33,527 nucleotides of DNA, taken from positions 1 through 33,527 of the forward strand of contig JAHDDT010000012.1 in NCBI GenBank assembly GCA_020629195.1, read 5' to 3'. Of the stretch, positions 9,541-20,850 are shown piece by piece; the first letter of the stretch is position 1; each line of letters begins with the position of its first letter. The position numbers were made by a program, and so were the translations under genes. Origin of the DNA: Hellea sp. (GTDB lineage: Bacteria; Pseudomonadota; Alphaproteobacteria; Caulobacterales; Maricaulaceae). The notes under the pieces are model-generated. The model was given only the letters and a program-made list of their open reading frames with translations. It had not been told where the DNA came from and made no database searches.

Positions 9541-10923
9541 ATGCGCTTAGCTGTCTGCACTTTATCAGCGGTATTACTCTCAGGCTGTTCTTGGCTTGGT
9601 GGTGTTGGCAATGTCTTTAATGGCGGCGGCCAAGGTCATCATGCTAAATCTTCGCACTATCAATATGGCGGTGGACATCACCGGCAGCACCAATATCAAG
9701 CTCAGCGTGACCCTTGCCAAGTTTTCTCGCCAAAAGCGCCGATTCCGCAAGGCTGTCACCCCTCTCAGGTCACGCTTGGTACTGCGGGCGGTTTTCCGCA
9801 ACAGCCTAGCTTCGGCGTGCCAGCGCAGGGCCGCGGCCAATATGCGAGCCAAGGTTATGGCTCTCACGCAGGTGTTGCGCATCAACAAGCTGCACATTAT
9901 GGTCCGCGTAAGAGTAAAAAGCGCAAGCCGCGTTTTCGTGGGGCGTTATCTCTAGGGGCTGAGAAAAGTATCTCTGGAGGATTACTGGATTACACAAAAC
10001 TTCCGACAATTGACCCTGTGGCTGGATATAACCCGCAGGATTACCGTGAAGCCAGAACGACAGGTAGCGAAGCTACAGGCAATATAACGACCGTTACATG
10101 GACTGCGAATCAGCAGGAGCTTTCCGGAACAGCGGTCTTAACGCCGCCAGGAACTGGCTTTTTAGGTTACGAACGCGCAAGGAACCCTGAAATTTCTTTC
10201 GATGATGTTTACAGCACGCCCACACGGCTCGCTGGCGGATTTGAATATATTGTGAATCCAAAAACCACTTTCTTTGCAAATGCCGGATATTCTCAAGCCG
10301 AAGGTAAGAGCGGCCAAGTTGCCTCTATTGATGCCACGCTTTACCGTTTGACGGAATCTCAAGATTATCAACCAGAGGATCCGGGTGTTGACGCCATGGG
10401 TAACCCAAACCCTCCGACAGGAAATTTTGTTACCGCGGGCGGCCTTCAACGTTCAACATCATTTATTCCAAATGAAGAAATTGCCCGGTTCAATTATGAT
10501 TTTACGGATATGAAGCGCCTCGATTTAGAAGCTGGTGGGCGTTATTACTTTAACCCTCTTGTCAAAAGCCAAGGTTATAAAACCTTGACGCCTTTTGTCG
10601 GGGCCGCCGTTGGCGCGTCACATTACAACGCTGTCTCTTACGATTCATCTCAGACACAGCGTTTTTACGAGCGCGCCTTTGAGAGTGGTGAAAATGATTA
10701 CTACGAAATTGTAGGCCCTAACACACGTGTTGATCTCTATGATAGTCAATGGGTTCCATCAGGTCAGTTAAACGCCGGTATGGAGTGGCAAGTTACGCCC
10801 AAATCAGCTCTCGCATTTGAAACAGGTGTCCGTGTTGAAGGCGCTCGCAAATATAGCAACGGTGAACGTGGCGATAAAAATATAGCAATTCCGATGACAA
10901 TCAGAGGAAGTTACAACTTTTAA
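9541..10923 (+). CDS. Lipobox outer-membrane barrel-like protein A (His/Gln/Tyr-rich N-terminal region)
   Basis: A 460-residue protein of unrecognised family. Residues 1-16 form a lipoprotein signal with lipobox LLSGC (Cys16) and Ser at +2, predicting outer-membrane retention. Residues 17-122 are low complexity, with a His-rich stretch (33-50), many Gln, Tyr and Gly, and two cysteines (59 and 72) around APIPQGCHPSQ. A basic patch, KSKKRKP (124-130), precedes a C-terminal part (about 133-460) of alternating polar/hydrophobic strands ending in TIRGSYNF. The final Phe is typical of outer-membrane barrels. The ribosome site GGAGGAACG is strong. It is the first of three tandem paralogs; shared segments include TPFVGAAVGA, FETGVRVEGA and the last strand. 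Function unknown: a surface-exposed barrel, adhesin or envelope structural protein are all possible. Confidence 0.8.
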   Translation: MRLAVCTLSAVLLSGCSWLGGVGNVFNGGGQGHHAKSSHYQYGGGHHRQHQYQAQRDPCQVFSPKAPIPQGCHPSQVTLGTAGGFPQQPSFGVPAQGRGQYASQGYGSHAGVAHQQAAHYGPRKSKKRKPRFRGALSLGAEKSISGGLLDYTKLPTIDPVAGYNPQDYREARTTGSEATGNITTVTWTANQQELSGTAVLTPPGTGFLGYERARNPEISFDDVYSTPTRLAGGFEYIVNPKTTFFANAGYSQAEGKSGQVASIDATLYRLTESQDYQPEDPGVDAMGNPNPPTGNFVTAGGLQRSTSFIPNEEIARFNYDFTDMKRLDLEAGGRYYFNPLVKSQGYKTLTPFVGAAVGASHYNAVSYDSSQTQRFYERAFESGENDYYEIVGPNTRVDLYDSQWVPSGQLNAGMEWQVTPKSALAFETGVRVEGARKYSNGERGDKNIAIPMTIRGSYNF

Positions 10924-11034
10924 CTAAATAACTGGAAACCTTAAGGTTTTGTTTCCGATTTAGAAACGAAATTTTAAGCATACAGTGTTTTAAATTGGGA
11001 CAGTTAGTCTTTTAACGAGAAAAGGGAGGCCGAT

Positions 11035-12417
11035 ATGCGGCTTGCAGTTTGCGCTTTATCAGCGGTTTTATTGTCAGGGTGTTCCTGGCTGGGTATGGGC
11101 GGTCACGGATCTGCAGGCGGGGCCTATGGTGTAAACTGTGCTCCCACTGGAACGGGATATTACGCTGGCGGCGGAAGCGCGGGAGCATGTGGCGTTGGCG
11201 GCGGTTACGGCGTCGCAGGTAACGGTTATGGCGCGGGCGCAGGTTATGGTGCTGGTGCAGGCTACGGTGCAGGCGGTGCTGGATATGGCACAGCAGGCTA
11301 CGGAGCGGGCGCGGGTTACGGGGCTGCGGGTTACGGCTCAGGTGCTGGCGCTGGATATGGGGCCGCTGGTTACGGTACAGGCGCTGGATACGGTGCAGGC
11401 GGATATGGCGCGGGTGCTGGTTTTGGCGGCGTAGGCGCTGGCTTAGCGGCGAATGGCGTCGGCGCAGGTTACGGCGTTAACGGATATAATCTTCAAGGCT
11501 TCCAAGGTGCGTATGGCGCAAATGGCGGCGTAACAACACTTGGCGCGAATGCAGGATATGGATCTGCTGTTTACGGACAAAATGTTGTCGGCACGCAATA
11601 TGGCAATGGTCAATATGTCCAAGGTGCTGGCGTACAAACAATACAAGGCGCGCCTTATTATGTGCCGCAGCCTTATCCCGCTTATTACGGCGTTCCGCAG
11701 CTTCGCGGCGTTGGTGCGGCTCTTCCATTCGCTTTTGAAACAGGCATCGGGACAGAATTTGACATTGGCGGCGATGTCTTTGGCGGCAAAGAAGAAAGCC
11801 CTAACGGTGCTGATTTCGCCAGCTCAACAGCGCGTATTGGTGAACTTGATGCGATTAGCTATGACGATGCCTTTAAGAAAGGCATCAGCCTCGGCGGTAA
11901 TCTAGCCTATGACGTGTCACGCAATACAACACTGATTGGTGGCTTGGGTTATTCTAAGCGTAAAGGCCAGACACTTGAAAATGGTACATTTGAGCCGGGT
12001 TCCTATGACTCAGCAGGTAACTTTACATCAAGCGGCCCTGTTGAAACAGTAACAGCTGAATATTCAGACCTTGAAGAGTGGAAACTCGAAGGCGGCGTAC
12101 GTCAATATATGGGTTATAATCCAGTATTCCGTCCTTATGTCGGCGCCACAGGCGGCTTCACACATAATAATGGTGTCGATGTCACACAGACATCGTCTGG
12201 CGGAACTTTGACAGCTGCAGCCAATACGCAAGAATTTATCGATAGCGGATGGCGTCCAACAGCAGCAGGCGTAATAGGCGCAGAGATGGCTGTAGGGTCA
12301 CGTGCGGCGCTGGGTGTTGAGACAGGTATTCGCTGGCGCGATAATCTTGACACAAATACGAAGTCTGATGACCGTTGGTCTATCCCAGTCTCTCTACGTG
12401 GCCGGGTTGCCTTTTAA
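11035..12417 (+). CDS. Lipobox outer-membrane barrel-like protein B (Gly-Tyr-Ala repeat region)
   Basis: A 460-residue paralog of the preceding gene, with nearly the same signal sequence (VLLSGCSWLG, lipid Cys16). Residues about 57-148 are a Gly/Ala/Tyr repeat built on GYGAGA, GYGAA and GYGTG variants. A Gln/Pro/Tyr-rich spacer follows, with VPQPYPAYYGVPQL near 210. The C-terminal part (about 229-460) reads as beta strands: GIGTEFDIGGDVFGG, LGYSKRKG, LEGGVRQYMGY, FRPYVGATGG, GWRPTAAGVIG, VETGIRW and the terminal SLRGRVAF. It starts 111 bases after gene A with GGGAGG at the ribosome site and is followed by a strong terminator. No known family was recognised. The repeat is reminiscent of self-assembling Gly/Tyr-rich proteins, which is only an analogy. 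Confidence 0.82.
   Translation: MRLAVCALSAVLLSGCSWLGMGGHGSAGGAYGVNCAPTGTGYYAGGGSAGACGVGGGYGVAGNGYGAGAGYGAGAGYGAGGAGYGTAGYGAGAGYGAAGYGSGAGAGYGAAGYGTGAGYGAGGYGAGAGFGGVGAGLAANGVGAGYGVNGYNLQGFQGAYGANGGVTTLGANAGYGSAVYGQNVVGTQYGNGQYVQGAGVQTIQGAPYYVPQPYPAYYGVPQLRGVGAALPFAFETGIGTEFDIGGDVFGGKEESPNGADFASSTARIGELDAISYDDAFKKGISLGGNLAYDVSRNTTLIGGLGYSKRKGQTLENGTFEPGSYDSAGNFTSSGPVETVTAEYSDLEEWKLEGGVRQYMGYNPVFRPYVGATGGFTHNNGVDVTQTSSGGTLTAAANTQEFIDSGWRPTAAGVIGAEMAVGSRAALGVETGIRWRDNLDTNTKSDDRWSIPVSLRGRVAF
11203..11478 (+). repeat. In-frame Gly-Tyr-Ala coding repeat
   Basis: Imperfect tandem units of about 12 to 24 bases encode GYGAGA-type segments, about residues 57-148 of protein B. Codons vary between units (ggt, ggc, gga; tat, tac), so the repeat is better conserved in protein than in DNA. 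This suggests selection on the amino-acid pattern and not very recent slippage. All unit length differences are multiples of three, so the frame is kept. Confidence 0.85.
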
Positions 12418-12442
12418 TTAACCCAAAAATAACTATGAATAC

Positions 12443-12473
12443 AAAAGCCCGGGTCAAACGCCCGGGCTTTTTG
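12443..12473 (+). terminator. Intrinsic terminator after barrel gene B
   Basis: The arms AAAAGCCCGGG and CCCGGGCTTTTT form a perfect GC-rich stem around a 7-base loop, with the U-run built into the 3' arm. It separates gene B from gene C, so the third paralog probably has its own promoter in the remaining roughly 130 bases before its start. Confidence 0.9.
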
Positions 12474-12602
12474 CATTTTCTTTAAGACTTTTCCCTATGG
12501 AGCCGTCCCATAAATATGAATTGGCCTTTTCTTTGCAACGTTCCGTTTCAAATCTGAAGTTCAAGGCAATTGTGCCAATTCGTAACAACAGGGAATGGAT
12601 TT

Positions 12603-13457
12603 ATGCGTATTTTATTAGCAGGTGCGGCAGCTATCGCACTTTCAGGGTGTTCTTTTTTAGGATTAGGTGGAAACAAAGACTATAAGAACTACGGTTACAA
12701 CGCACAGACTGGCAATTACGGCTATCAAGCTGATAAAGTTGCGCCTAAGGGCTGTCATAGCGGTCAATGTTTAAGCCGTTGGAATCTCGAAGGCGCCATA
12801 GGCCCATCATTCGCTGTTGGTGGCCATGCTGTGACTGGCGATAAAATGAATGCGGCGCCTCGCACTTCGGTTCGCAATCTTGATAATAGCGACATCTTCG
12901 ATACGGGTTATCGTGCCGAACTTGGCGGGTCTTACGCTCTAAGTCCAAATCGTAAGATCACGGGTAACGCATTTGTTGAAAATGCCAATGGCGGCGATGT
13001 TGTAGATTGGGGCACGCTTAATGGAGCGTCACTCCAAGGCGGTTTATCTGATTATCAGACATATGGTGCCGAGATCGGTCTTCGTCAGTATTTTGCGCCG
13101 CGTAAAGGACTGATTCTTAAGTCTGTTCGCCCATATGTAGAAGGTAAACTCGGTGCAGCGCATTTGGACGATATCACTTTAAACAACGTCACCACTACAG
13201 CTGGCACAACGGTGAATAATGTTGCTGATCTTCCTTTTTACGAAGGAGGTTGGGTTCCAACGGCAGCGGGTATGATTGGTTTTGAAACGCCTGTCGCTAA
13301 ATATACAACAATAGGTCTTGAGACAGGTCTGCGTTATACAGGTGTACCAAAAACGGATACATCAGCAATTCGTCCAGGAACAGCCTTGTCAGGTGCAAAT
13401 AATGGCGGCGCGCGTTATTCCGTGCCTGTCATGCTACGGGGCCGCTACCGCTTCTAG
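12603..13457 (+). CDS. Lipobox outer-membrane barrel-like protein C (short N-terminal region)
   Basis: A 284-residue third paralog. The frame is open from 12570, but the ATG at 12603 begins the lipoprotein signal MRILLAGAAAIALSGCSFLG (lipid Cys16) and has AGGGA 8 bases upstream. The N-terminal linker is only about 35 residues, Tyr/Asn/Gly-rich, and contains VAPKGCHSGQC. This parallels IPQGCHPSQ in protein A, so the P-x-GCH motif is shared. From residue 59 the barrel-like part runs through LRQYFAP, VRPYVEGKLGAAH, GGWVPTAAGMIGFE and LETGLRY to the terminal MLRGRYRF. It is the compact version of the family and may represent the minimal domain. Function unknown. Paired hairpins follow the stop. 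Confidence 0.82.
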   Translation: MRILLAGAAAIALSGCSFLGLGGNKDYKNYGYNAQTGNYGYQADKVAPKGCHSGQCLSRWNLEGAIGPSFAVGGHAVTGDKMNAAPRTSVRNLDNSDIFDTGYRAELGGSYALSPNRKITGNAFVENANGGDVVDWGTLNGASLQGGLSDYQTYGAEIGLRQYFAPRKGLILKSVRPYVEGKLGAAHLDDITLNNVTTTAGTTVNNVADLPFYEGGWVPTAAGMIGFETPVAKYTTIGLETGLRYTGVPKTDTSAIRPGTALSGANNGGARYSVPVMLRGRYRF

Positions 13458-16238: not shown

Positions 16239-17786
16239 ATGGTTGCACGTATTTACACGGTTGCATTTGACGGCGCGGAAGCGCGGCGTGTTGATGTGCA
16301 GGTTCAGGTCACGTCATCTGGTAAGAATATCTTCAATATTGTTGGACTGGCCGATAAAGCGGTGGCTGAGTCACGTGAGCGCGTCAGAGCCGCATTTGCC
16401 TCCCTTGGAATAGGCTTACCCGGAAAACGAATTATTATAAATCTTGCTCCTGCGGATTTACCCAAAGAAGGCGCGCATTATGACCTCCCCATCGCGCTTG
16501 GGCTAATGGCTGCCATCGGCGTTATTCCAGTAGATGCGATTGAGAGCTTTGTGGCGATCGGCGAATTATCATTGGACGGCACCATCTCTGGTGTTCCAGG
16601 GGCTCTGCCGGCGGCGGTTTTAGCAAATTCAGAAGGTTTAGGCCTCATCTGTCCGCAGCCTAATGGCGCCGAGGCGGCTTGGGCAGGCGATTTACCTTTG
16701 CTTGCACCGCAAAACCTTATTCAATTGATGAACCATTTTAAGGGGAGTCAAATACTGGCTCGTCCCGAACCTGGCCAAATGCTCGAGGATGAAAGCTCAC
16801 TTGATCTGCGGGATGTACGCGGACAGGAAACAGCGAAACGGGCTTTGGAAGTGGCTGCGGCGGGCGGGCATAATCTACTCATGGTTGGGCCGCCTGGATC
16901 GGGCAAGTCCATGCTTGCAGCGCGAATGGCAGGGCTTTTACCTCCGTTGACGGCTAAAGAATTACTCGACGTATCCATGGTTCATTCTGTTGCGGGGCTG
17001 TTAGAACGTGGACAGCTCTCAAGGGTACGTCCATTTCGAGCGCCGCATCATTCCGCGTCAATGGCGGCGATGGTCGGCGGTGGTACAAAGGCGAAGCCCG
17101 GCGAAGCCTCTTTGGCACATCGCGGCGTTTTATTTTTGGATGAATTGCCCGAATTTACACCGCAAGTCTTGGATAGTCTGCGCCAACCTCTTGAAACAGG
17201 CGAAATTGCTGTCGCCCGCGTTAATGCTCACGTGACTTATCCCGCACGCTTTCAGCTAATTGCCGCCATGAATCCTTGTCGCTGCGGAAGCGGAGGCGCA
17301 GATGGAATTGCTTGCCGCCGGGGTGAGCGCTGTGCCGCAGATTATCAAGCTCGCGTGTCTGGGCCATTTATGGACAGGCTGGATATCCAAATTGATGTCC
17401 CTGCTGTAACGCCTGCTGATCTCGCTCTACCGCCAAGTCAAGAAGGCACAGCGGAGGTCGCAACAAGGGTGGCGCGTGCTAGGGCGGTGCAGCTTGAACG
17501 CAATGGCGGGCGCACTAATGCTGAGCTTTCACAAGATATGCTTGATCATGTCGCCGCTCCAGATAAGGAAGGCCAAACACTCTTAATTCAGGCGGCTGAA
17601 ACTTTGGGCTTAACAGCAAGAGGATATCACCGTGTGCTGAAAGTGGCGCGAACATTAGCTGACTTGGCTGGATCCGAAAACATACACAGATTACACATTG
17701 CCGAAAGTTTGTCTCATCGCCGTGCGCGTAAGGGGATAGCGCAACATAAAAAACTGCAACCCACTTCCCGTCAGCGTCGATATTAG
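16239..17786 (+). CDS. comM: ComM/YifB family Mg-chelatase-like AAA+ ATPase
   Basis: A 515-residue YifB/ComM protein. Residues 1-170 form the N-terminal ChlI domain with TVAFDGAEARRVDVQVQV and GLADKAVAESRERVRAAF. The AAA+ core has Walker A GPPGSGKSM (217-225), Walker B VLFLDELPEF (297-306), and a sensor region MNPCRCGSGG, where Cys347, Cys349, Cys359 and Cys365 form a cysteine cluster common in this family. The C-terminal helical domain contains LTARGYHRVLKVARTLADL. ComM is a hexameric helicase that promotes branch migration during natural transformation in Vibrio and relatives; in alphaproteobacteria its role is less certain. A strong GGAGGG ribosome site precedes the ATG. In many genomes this gene neighbours gshB or dprA, not seen here. 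Confidence 0.95.
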   Translation: MVARIYTVAFDGAEARRVDVQVQVTSSGKNIFNIVGLADKAVAESRERVRAAFASLGIGLPGKRIIINLAPADLPKEGAHYDLPIALGLMAAIGVIPVDAIESFVAIGELSLDGTISGVPGALPAAVLANSEGLGLICPQPNGAEAAWAGDLPLLAPQNLIQLMNHFKGSQILARPEPGQMLEDESSLDLRDVRGQETAKRALEVAAAGGHNLLMVGPPGSGKSMLAARMAGLLPPLTAKELLDVSMVHSVAGLLERGQLSRVRPFRAPHHSASMAAMVGGGTKAKPGEASLAHRGVLFLDELPEFTPQVLDSLRQPLETGEIAVARVNAHVTYPARFQLIAAMNPCRCGSGGADGIACRRGERCAADYQARVSGPFMDRLDIQIDVPAVTPADLALPPSQEGTAEVATRVARARAVQLERNGGRTNAELSQDMLDHVAAPDKEGQTLLIQAAETLGLTARGYHRVLKVARTLADLAGSENIHRLHIAESLSHRRARKGIAQHKKLQPTSRQRRY

Positions 17787-17944: not shown

Positions 17945-19279
17945 ATGTCACCTGACGACATTTTTGCGGCACAGATTTGGCCTTGGCCGGACCCCGCTCT
18001 TAAACGTGACCCCATGGGCCGAGTGCTTTTTGTCAATGCAGCCTTTCTCCAAATGTACGGGGGACAAGTTGATGATTGGCGCGGTAATGTGGTTACAGGT
18101 TGGCCCGTTCCGCAGCCTCCGGGGCTGCCTTATCGGTTTGAAACGCGCTTGCCGTCAGATGATGGAGAGCAAGTCTTTGACTGGATGGAATTTACCATGG
18201 CCGATGGGAATGCTTTTGCCATGGCACGAAATGTAACCTATCTTATGCATACGCCTGACCCTGATCCCGGAGCTCTGCAACCTCCTGCTGAAGCTCAGTC
18301 TGTACCAAGCGCGGGGCAAGATAACAGTTACGTCGCCACGACACAAAACCAATCGGTAGATACGCCGCTTCCTGCCTTTTCTCAGAACACGGATACTGCT
18401 CCCGTGGCTGAAGTTCAAATTGCAGACGCGCCGAGTTATCAAGAACAACCTCCTCAAGAGCCGTTGCAGAATCAGGTTACAGAAACGGCCAGTGTTGAAT
18501 CCTATGTTACCGAAAGTCATCAAGCAGCAGATTCTATTATCGCAGATGTTGCTACTGACCCTTCATTTGAGTCGTCCTCTTATGATAATCTAACGACCCC
18601 ACAAGTGACCCCAGACTCAGAGCCAGAGTCTGTAAATGCCGAGCCCATTTTAACGCATCAAGATACGCAATCATTGCAAGACCCCATGCCAGTTCAAGAG
18701 ACCGCTTCGCAAGAGCGAGAATACGAACGTCGGGCTTTGCCATTAGAGAGTGAGAATACTGTTCTTGGAAATAATTGGCGGGATGCCGTTATTGCAAAAG
18801 CTGTTGGCGTAGAGACGTCGACAGAGGAAGAAACGTCGGAAGCCGAAACAGTTGATGCGCCTAAAGCGAGTCAAGTTGAGGGTGATGGCCCGATAAGGAT
18901 TCTTCTCGCTGAGGATAATGCGATAAATGCTTTATTGACCCGTACGCTTTTAGAAGCCGAAGGGCATACTGTCGAAACTGTTGAAGATGGTGCGTTAGCT
19001 GTAGAGGCAATGAAGTCCTCTTCCTATGATTTGATCTTTATGGATATGAGAATGCCCAATATGGACGGGCTCGAAGCGACAAGAAAAATTCGCGCCATGG
19101 ACAATGTATCCAAAGGCTTGCCGATTATTGCCCTGACGGCCAACGCTTTTGATGATGACCGTAATGCCTGTTTCGACAGCGGAATGAATGACTTTATGAC
19201 AAAGCCAGTCTCTGCAGAAGAGCTCTCTGAAATGGTTCGGACTTGGACAAAAAATAAGGCTCAGAGAGAAGCCGCGTAA
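17945..19279 (+). CDS. PAS-like plus receiver-domain protein lacking a histidine kinase core
   Basis: A 444-residue signalling protein. A GTG-started frame opens at 17891, but the ATG at 17945 has GAGGGG at the right distance. Residues about 20-102 resemble a PAS domain (GRVLFVNAAFLQMYGG, then FDWMEFTMADGNAFAMARNVT). Residues about 105-310 are an acidic Pro/Gln/Thr/Ser-rich linker with no visible H-box, N-box or G-box. Residues 316-433 are a complete receiver domain: Glu323-Asp324, phosphoacceptor Asp367 in IFMDMRMPNMDG, Thr398 in ALTAN, and Lys420 in MTKP. The receiver is of the type usually attached to hybrid histidine kinases, so this looks like a hybrid kinase without its catalytic core, or a scaffold that receives phosphate from a separate kinase. 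No HPt or kinase gene is adjacent. Confidence 0.82.
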   Translation: MSPDDIFAAQIWPWPDPALKRDPMGRVLFVNAAFLQMYGGQVDDWRGNVVTGWPVPQPPGLPYRFETRLPSDDGEQVFDWMEFTMADGNAFAMARNVTYLMHTPDPDPGALQPPAEAQSVPSAGQDNSYVATTQNQSVDTPLPAFSQNTDTAPVAEVQIADAPSYQEQPPQEPLQNQVTETASVESYVTESHQAADSIIADVATDPSFESSSYDNLTTPQVTPDSEPESVNAEPILTHQDTQSLQDPMPVQETASQEREYERRALPLESENTVLGNNWRDAVIAKAVGVETSTEEETSEAETVDAPKASQVEGDGPIRILLAEDNAINALLTRTLLEAEGHTVETVEDGALAVEAMKSSSYDLIFMDMRMPNMDGLEATRKIRAMDNVSKGLPIIALTANAFDDDRNACFDSGMNDFMTKPVSAEELSEMVRTWTKNKAQREAA

Positions 19280-19318
19280 TGACCAAAATCTTGCCTTGAA
19301 AAGGGACTAAAAGAATTG

Positions 19319-19350
19319 CACCGTGGCTTAATCCTAAGCCGCGGTGTTCT
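19319..19350 (+). terminator. Terminator-like hairpin abutting the ampG start codon
   Basis: CACCGTGGCTTA and TAAGCCGCGGTG form a 12-bp stem with one G-U wobble and a 4-base loop, followed by TTCTTAT. It can terminate the PAS-receiver transcript, but it ends 7 bases before the ampG ATG at 19354 and covers the place where a ribosome site would lie. It may therefore also control ampG expression. Confidence 0.7.
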
Positions 19351-19353
19351 TAT

Positions 19354-20850
19354 ATGAGTGATGTAAAGACTGAAAAATCCCTTATCCAAAAATTGGATGA
19401 GGCTTTTCTTTTTTCAGAAATATTTGCAAGCCGCAAAATGGCTGCCATGTTGGCTTTGGGCTTTAGCGCCGGCCTTCCCATTATGTTGGTCTACACGACG
19501 CTTTCGGCATGGTTGCGCGAAGTCGGTGTAGATCGCGCCACAATTGGTTTCTTTATTTGGGCCAGTTTTGCTTATTCGCTGAAGTTTCTCTGGGCCCCCT
19601 TAACGGACCGCATAAGAATTCCAGTATTAGCCAATAAAATCGGAAACCGATTGGCTTGGACATTCTTGGCCGTTTTAGGCGTTACGGGGGCGATGGTAGC
19701 AATGGGTTTTCAAGACCCTGCTGAGAATTTGCGTAATGTTGCCATATGCGCCGTTATGATAGGGTTCTTCTCTGCAACATTGGATATTTGCGTTGACGCA
19801 TGGCGCATTGATGCATCCGAAGACAAAGAACAAGCGATGATGGCCGCCGTCTATCAGCTCGGATATCGATTCGGAATGATCATTGCGATTTCAGGTGTAT
19901 TGTGGGTCGCAGAATTAAGTTCATGGCCTATTGCCTATTGGACCGTTGCCTTCATAGCTTTTTTGGGAGCGACAACCCCTTTTTGGGCGAGCCGTCCTGT
20001 TGAAGCAAAACCTAAATCCGTCTCAGAGATTAAATGGTCACGTTTTTTGTTTATTGTGCCAATTATAGCCCTTGTTTTAGGGTTTAAAAAATATGGCGGG
20101 GTAGGCGATCTTTTTTACATTATTCTATTTATCCTATCTCTCCCCTATTTTTTTGCCATAGCGCTTTTAACATTGGGCCGCGAGACGCTGCAGGGACAGG
20201 CCATTTATGATGTTCCTATTGTGGGTGATTTCGCAGATATCGTTCGCCGCTTTGGGTGGCTGTCTCTTCTATTATTACTCATTGTTATGACCTATCGATT
20301 TAGTGATTACACAATGGGTGTTATGGCGATGCCCCTTTATATTGATTTGGGATATAGCAAGGGCACGATAGGACTCGTTAAGGGCGCATTTGGCGTGACC
20401 ATGTTATTAGTTGGCTCTTTTGCGGGCGGCTGGTCTGCGCTTAAATTTGGACTTCCAAAGACACTGATAGTTGGCGCTATATTGACCATTGTGACCAATA
20501 TGGCCTTTGCTTGGCTTGCCCAAGTTGATGCGCCTTTGGCTCAATATTTATTTGTGACCATAGGTGCAGATAACTTAGCGGCAGGCTTTGCAGGCACGGC
20601 CATAATTGCCTTTATGTCGCTTCTTGTGAATAAGGAATTTACCGCGACTCAATATGCATTATTTTCATCTATTGTTGCTTTTTCTGGAAAATCCATAGCC
20701 GGATTTTCTGGCGTTTTGGCGGATATGATTGACTATCAGAATTTCTTTATAGTGACTGCTCTTTTTGGCATTCCGCCTCTCTTAGCTGTGATTGTCAGTT
20801 GGAAGATAAAGTTGCTCGACCGCGGCAAAATGAAATCCACACAGGATTAA
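19354..20850 (+). CDS. ampG: AmpG-like muropeptide MFS permease
   Basis: A 498-residue major facilitator transporter of the AmpG type, which imports GlcNAc-anhydroMurNAc peptides from the periplasm for cell-wall recycling. After a short cytoplasmic lead (1-30), the first helix carries LALGFSAGLPIMLVYTTLSAWLR split across the AmpG signature, followed by FAYSLKFLWAPLTDRI. DICVDAWRID and YQLGYRFGMI are further AmpG-typical segments. About 12 to 14 hydrophobic helices are visible, with the longer form including extra helices near residues 230-270. No Shine-Dalgarno sequence is visible before the ATG; instead a strong stem-loop ends 7 bases upstream, and the next in-frame Met is residue 29. No ampR or ampC is adjacent. 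Confidence 0.88.
   Translation: MSDVKTEKSLIQKLDEAFLFSEIFASRKMAAMLALGFSAGLPIMLVYTTLSAWLREVGVDRATIGFFIWASFAYSLKFLWAPLTDRIRIPVLANKIGNRLAWTFLAVLGVTGAMVAMGFQDPAENLRNVAICAVMIGFFSATLDICVDAWRIDASEDKEQAMMAAVYQLGYRFGMIIAISGVLWVAELSSWPIAYWTVAFIAFLGATTPFWASRPVEAKPKSVSEIKWSRFLFIVPIIALVLGFKKYGGVGDLFYIILFILSLPYFFAIALLTLGRETLQGQAIYDVPIVGDFADIVRRFGWLSLLLLLIVMTYRFSDYTMGVMAMPLYIDLGYSKGTIGLVKGAFGVTMLLVGSFAGGWSALKFGLPKTLIVGAILTIVTNMAFAWLAQVDAPLAQYLFVTIGADNLAAGFAGTAIIAFMSLLVNKEFTATQYALFSSIVAFSGKSIAGFSGVLADMIDYQNFFIVTALFGIPPLLAVIVSWKIKLLDRGKMKSTQD

Follow-up and report, generated by a model that had tools for sequence, protein, structure and literature searches.

The locus examined here raises the question of what a signalling protein does when it has the sensory and receiver ends of a hybrid kinase and no kinase between them. 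The gene lies at positions 17945 to 19279 of the window, which is the whole stretch of DNA that was analysed (33,527 nucleotides of Hellea sp., contig JAHDDT010000012.1). An earlier note, based on the sequence of this stretch, had suggested a phosphate sink, a scaffold, or a sensor modulated by a separate kinase. The basis of that suggestion was retained, in that the protein is kinase-free and must use a separate kinase or act as a sink; its orthology to ShkA and the presence of ShpA and TacA in the genome had been missed.

The gene and its product

The open reading frame encodes 444 amino acids on the forward strand, starting with ATG at 17945 immediately behind a Shine-Dalgarno sequence of the GAGGGG type. 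The features of the locus are given below in window coordinates, with the evidence in brackets.

16239..17786, + strand: yifB, upstream synteny anchor of the shkA slot (Pfam, synteny)
17945..19279, + strand: coreless ShkA ortholog, 444 aa, PAS - disordered linker - receiver (Pfam, synteny, orthologs)
17945..18265, + strand: PAS domain, residues 1-107 (AlphaFold2 and Foldseek, weak Pfam match, conservation, dN/dS)
18266..18709, + strand: acidic disordered Pro/Gln/Ser/Thr/Ala linker, residues 108-255, no Lys or Arg, in place of DHp, CA and REC1 (AlphaFold2, composition, full-length counterparts)
18710..18814, + strand: clade-specific linker motif, residues 256-290, helix at 278-287 (ortholog alignment, AlphaFold2)
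18815..18892, + strand: variable acidic spacer, residues 291-316 (ortholog alignment, AlphaFold2)
18893..19252, + strand: receiver, counterpart of ShkA REC2, residues 317-436, with D367 at 19043-19045 (Pfam, PDB match, conservation)
19318..19347, + strand: terminator-like hairpin 3' of the gene, 13 base pairs (-24 kcal/mol, z=-4.9)
19354..20850, + strand: AmpG-family transporter gene, downstream synteny anchor (synteny)

The PAS domain is weak at the sequence level (PAS_4 in Pfam, E=0.015) and clear by fold. Modelled by itself, it reached an AlphaFold2 pLDDT of 86, its top PDB matches in Foldseek were all PAS domains, and about 30 of its residues are invariant among 13 orthologs. The receiver was matched by PF00072 at residues 319-432 (E=6e-29), and its residues E323, D324, D367, T398 and K420 are intact and invariant in an alignment of 16 orthologs. 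AlphaFold2 modelling with 16 orthologs yielded a confident PAS (1-107) and receiver (about 318-435), and pLDDT values below 50 at residues 108-277 and 288-313 with a single short helix (278-287) between them. The linker from 108 to 255 has a net charge of -23 and contains neither Lys nor Arg. No kinase family was matched by the 444-aa protein in Pfam even at E<=10, a divergent kinase fold in the linker was sought with Pfam and AlphaFold2 and none was found, and both methods agree that no output domain follows the receiver. With an intact receiver, no output domain and no kinase of its own, the protein has the make-up of a stand-alone relay receiver of the Spo0F/MrrA type, and would accept phosphoryl groups from trans kinases and donate them to an HPt if it also functions as one. 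It is not a hybrid histidine kinase, which combines a kinase core of its own with a receiver.

The domain reading of the earlier note, namely a PAS-like N-terminal end, an intact receiver with Asp367, Thr398 and Lys420 and nothing behind it, and an acidic linker without kinase core, was thus borne out. The terminator-like hairpin that it had placed after the gene was also recovered, although its T tail is weak. Residues 255-290, described there as less disordered-looking, correspond to the clade-conserved motif and its predicted helix. The motif has the consensus R..(D/E)RR.LP.....LG.NWRD.VIAKA.G, is present in coreless genomes only, and gave no further match above noise when searched among the other proteins of these genomes.

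The CtrA box TTAA-N7-TTAA was sought in 17 upstream regions and was no better than in shuffled sequence in 16 of them. A plasmid search returned generic receivers only. Elsewhere in the window (9541-13457), three lipoprotein-like ORFs with alike starts are arranged in tandem, the first two beginning with MRLAVCxLSAVLLSGCSWLG; the middle one contains a Gly/Tyr-rich repetitive stretch (tandem repeats at 11224-11420) and coincides with a local GC-skew peak.

The shkA slot and descent from ShkA

The gene is located between yifB and an ampG-like gene, and this YifB-X-AmpG order was found across the order Caulobacterales. In the other four of the five families sampled, the slot is occupied by a hybrid kinase with or without PAS, consisting of DHp, CA, pseudo-receiver and receiver, and ten other genera of the Hellea family also have a hybrid kinase in this place. 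The slot kinase of genome G038 (family f3) matched PDB entry 6qrj over its full length (E=9e-135), and the window receiver likewise had 6qrj as its top PDB match, at REC2 (E=5e-32). Entry 6qrj, named only 'Hybrid kinase' in the PDB tables, was taken to be Caulobacter ShkA; the spacing of the R, Y and DDR positions agrees, those of G038 fitting the published R324, Y338 and D369-R371 at a constant offset of 12. These positions are needed for c-di-GMP control of ShkA (PMC7010744). They are all present in the slot kinase of f3; f4 has a DER variant, and full-length members of f1 are already without DDR.

The PAS domain resembles that of the full-length slot kinases ('VN.AF...FGG...DW.G'). The alpha-1 face of the receiver, DNAINALLTRTLLEA, is invariant and ShkA-like (NALL signature), and this signature was absent from every other aligned receiver in H. 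balneolensis and G010.

ShkA of Caulobacter crescentus is arranged as DHp-CA-REC1-DDR linker-REC2 and acts in the phosphorelay ShkA-ShpA-TacA (PMC7010744). The window protein shares with it the yifB/ampG slot, a C-terminal REC2 with intact phosphorylation site that is closest to ShkA among solved proteins, a short C-terminal Ala tail, and ShpA and TacA-like partners, both of which are encoded in the same genome (G000). Unlike ShkA, it is devoid of the DHp and CA core with its H, N and G boxes, of the c-di-GMP-binding REC1 with R324 and Y338, and of the DDR motif, and has a PAS domain, a long disordered tether and a new motif. Since DHp, CA, REC1 and DDR are missing, it has no autokinase and no c-di-GMP switch. 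Based on the slot and on the matches of both the slot kinase and the window receiver to 6qrj, the gene is a shkA ortholog without these parts; that its product descends from ShkA and lost its core is close to certain.

The AmpG-like neighbour at L033, L038, L041 and L044, from several genera, differs in orientation and has only about 27-32% identity to the window copy. The transporter beside the slot looks as if it had been exchanged in several genera.

Loss of the core and constraint on the remaining parts

A profile of the slot kinase core was run against the genomes to look for a displaced core. Slot proteins of genomes with a full-length kinase scored about 270-590 bits against it, and its best match in coreless genomes reached 250-295 bits, which is the level of unrelated hybrid kinases in any of these genomes. 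A displaced or split ShkA core elsewhere in the coreless genomes was ruled out by these scores. With the core missing from the protein and absent elsewhere in the genome, the window protein is a ShkA in ancestry and genomic position without being a kinase of the ShkA type.

A search of 61 relatives recovered orthologs with this architecture in the same genus and family. Among named genomes, 51 loci of the long coreless type were located in Hellea, Litorimonas, Algimonas, Robiginitomaculum and related MAGs, all of them kinase-free. The 137 genomes of the family scan comprised 56 with the long coreless form, 14 with a short coreless form, 55 with a full-length kinase and 12 in which no slot product was found. 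Whether the linker is always kinase-free, a check proposed in the earlier note, could be affirmed for all of the approximately 56 orthologs of the coreless clade. The long architecture spans eight genera and includes isolates (Hellea balneolensis, Litorimonas, Algimonas, Robiginitomaculum). These genomes belong to the Robiginitomaculaceae, a prosthecate family, some members of which bud (PMC11556061).

The long coreless forms constitute one clade in the YifB tree (100/99) and in the TacA tree (100/100), and the short-form genus is its sister in the YifB tree (95/95). The short coreless form (L053, L067, L252-L264; 283-307 aa, one genus) has an RDRRRN-like motif directly after the PAS domain and a changed alpha-1 face of the receiver, and is a second kinase-less ShkA type. 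A single genome of that genus, G159 (L240), has a full-length ShkA-type kinase, with YifB and AmpG on either side as usual, which makes two or more losses of the core probable. Re-acquisition of the kinase by G159 would be the alternative to repeated loss; in the receiver tree its receiver falls outside the short forms, and the MAG is listed at 5% contamination.

Among orthologs, the PAS domain, the linker motif and the receiver are near-invariant, and the tether between them is poorly conserved. In close pairs, dN/dS was 0.008-0.022 for the receiver, 0.026-0.067 for PAS, 0.015-0.20 for the motif and 0.2-0.4 for the linker, values that are rough because dS is partly saturated. Receiver divergence relative to YifB was 0.78x in the long coreless clade versus 1.74x in full-length relatives of the same family. 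Core loss was followed by tighter, not looser, constraint on the receiver.

Partners, proposed relay and rival explanations

No kinase or HPt gene adjoins the gene, as had been observed before; an HPt is encoded elsewhere in the same genome, at G000:C127. The only PDB match of this Hellea HPt was ShpA (2ooc, E=5e-10), to which its f3 homolog was matched at 4e-47. A co-occurring HPt, which the earlier note had proposed to look for, was found as a ShpA-like protein in 48 of the 56 long coreless genomes, in 14/14 short coreless genomes and in 54/55 full-length genomes. The corresponding counts for a TacA-like sigma-54 regulator were 51/56, 14/14 and 53/55, the assignment being based on the receiver, C-terminal features and copy pattern and not on direct comparison with the Caulobacter protein. 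The f3 regulator carries the D54 site and ends in Ala-Gly, as described for TacA (PMC7010744). ShpA was not detected in some coreless MAGs, for instance G003, which is listed as 100% complete. Both partners are missing in six of the 12 genomes without slot product; five of these six are at least 88% complete and represent three genera, two of them coreless. The nominal Fisher p values for partner loss (4e-4 and 1e-5) ignore relatedness, which inflates co-occurrence statistics. It is likely that the coreless protein still works with ShpA and TacA.

Slot product, ShpA and TacA are all missing in G074, in G118, and in G001, G002 and G005 (one genus, 1.8-2.0 Mb); the last three are additionally without YifB. 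Reduced lineages have lost shkA and shpA along with other developmental genes (PMC12700997), and these losses fit the no-slot genomes of the family scan. In some Hellea, an HPt-containing protein of about 680 aa is encoded beside an extra sigma-54 activator (G000:C122:359-1587, G008:C33, G009:C32).

The proposed mechanism starts from a ShkA descendant in which DHp, CA and REC1, the pseudo-receiver that binds c-di-GMP, have been lost, and PAS and REC2 remain at the two ends of an acidic, disordered tether that contains one conserved motif. In it, REC2 would still exchange phosphoryl groups with the HPt ShpA, and ShpA with the sigma-54 regulator TacA. Because the coreless protein cannot autophosphorylate, a separate histidine kinase acting in trans most likely charges the receiver, which may then hand the phosphoryl group to ShpA like Spo0F or MrrA; PAS and the linker motif would probably recruit or gate this kinase. 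HPt proteins normally obtain their phosphoryl group from a receiver, and no ShkA-type receiver other than that of the window protein was found, which makes the path from trans kinase via receiver to ShpA the simplest reading. Since HPt-receiver transfer is reversible, the direction of flow is not given by sequence alone, and the chances that the receiver is the donor to ShpA appear about even. No candidate for the trans kinase was singled out; a conserved hybrid kinase of 829/833 aa, seen in H. balneolensis and G010, differs from the window protein in alpha-1 of its receiver. For a coreless ShkA that would be charged in trans and exchange with ShpA-TacA, a probability of about 50% is estimated.

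The main rival is that the protein may serve as a sink or brake. Another hybrid kinase would charge ShpA, and the coreless receiver would drain ShpA~P, hydrolyse the phosphate and lower TacA~P under PAS control. This would suit a complete receiver with a ShkA-like alpha-1 face and a reversible transfer, and several other hybrid kinases are present in H. balneolensis and G010. A precedent is found in the related LovK-LovR pair (PMC5964349). A second ShpA-charging receiver would be required, however, and no other aligned receiver in the two genomes examined has the ShkA-type alpha-1. A sink is considered less likely than the relay charged in trans.

Still less credit was given to a scaffold or allosteric function, in which phosphorylation would be secondary and PAS, motif and receiver would bind a separate kinase to regulate it, or keep the relay at the cell pole. 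A conserved short motif inside a disordered acidic linker is in line with this, REC2 of ShkA is already a kinase inhibitor (PMC7010744), and in Rhodobacterales only the PAS part of DivL is left (PMC9430884). The five residues of the phosphorylation site are all invariant, though, at a receiver dN/dS of about 0.01, whereas the scaffold-type Osp has lost them (PMC9430884).

Replacement of shkA by an unrelated PAS-receiver gene is very improbable: the backbone of the receiver tree is weak and the linker is unalignable to the kinase core, but PAS and receiver stand in the same order and place, the PAS domain is family-like, and the receiver has ShkA REC2 as top PDB match and retains the ShkA-type alpha-1. 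Orthologs with a full core, named in the earlier note as an indication of local deletion, do occupy the same slot outside the clade, but a local deletion, a decaying remnant or an assembly error was ruled out by 56 orthologs of one architecture in a monophyletic clade with isolates. The loss of the core is ancient and has become fixed in eight genera, and strong purifying selection is seen in the very low dN/dS.

Spo0F of Bacillus is a stand-alone receiver between kinases and a phosphotransferase; the window protein is likewise a stand-alone receiver, whereas Spo0F is single-domain and of different ancestry. Caulobacter MrrA is a single-domain receiver that passes phosphoryl groups from six kinases to PhyK/LovK (PMC5964349). 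Its kinase-less receiver resembles the one described here in the proposed function as a conduit from trans kinases to a histidine phosphotransfer partner; unlike the window protein, MrrA has no PAS domain or disordered tether and is no reduced hybrid kinase, and its transfers were shown by biochemistry. The nearest evolutionary parallel is DivL of Rhodobacterales, of which only the PAS part is left; a further one to compare is Osp, an inhibitor of CckA (PMC9430884). Both act in the cell-cycle signalling of Alphaproteobacteria and have no kinase function, DivL having lost the core and retained the sensor. In contrast to the window protein, Rhodobacterales DivL has no receiver, and Osp lacks the acidic pair and the Lys, all of which are invariant here.

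No report of a ShkA without kinase was found in the open-access literature. In Caulobacter, stalk formation and S-phase entry are timed by ShkA, a kinase activated by c-di-GMP. In a whole clade of relatives that are dimorphic and prosthecate, the gene is still in place and ShpA and TacA are retained, yet the enzyme has been removed. Because the core is gone, the ends are strongly conserved and the two partners are retained, the pathway must run, or be drained, in an undescribed way. Tentatively, the stalk and cell-cycle phosphorelay may have been rewired in these stalked, sometimes budding marine bacteria, probably more than once, by deletion of the hybrid kinase core with sensor and receiver kept, which would have turned a c-di-GMP-timed one-input relay into one fed by a kinase in trans, with the PAS-receiver protein as its free hub. 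Surveys of shkA presence or absence can misscore such genomes, in which the ortholog is present and is not a kinase. The clade offers a natural experiment on how phosphorelays switch their input, and on whether a hybrid kinase's receiver has a separate function.
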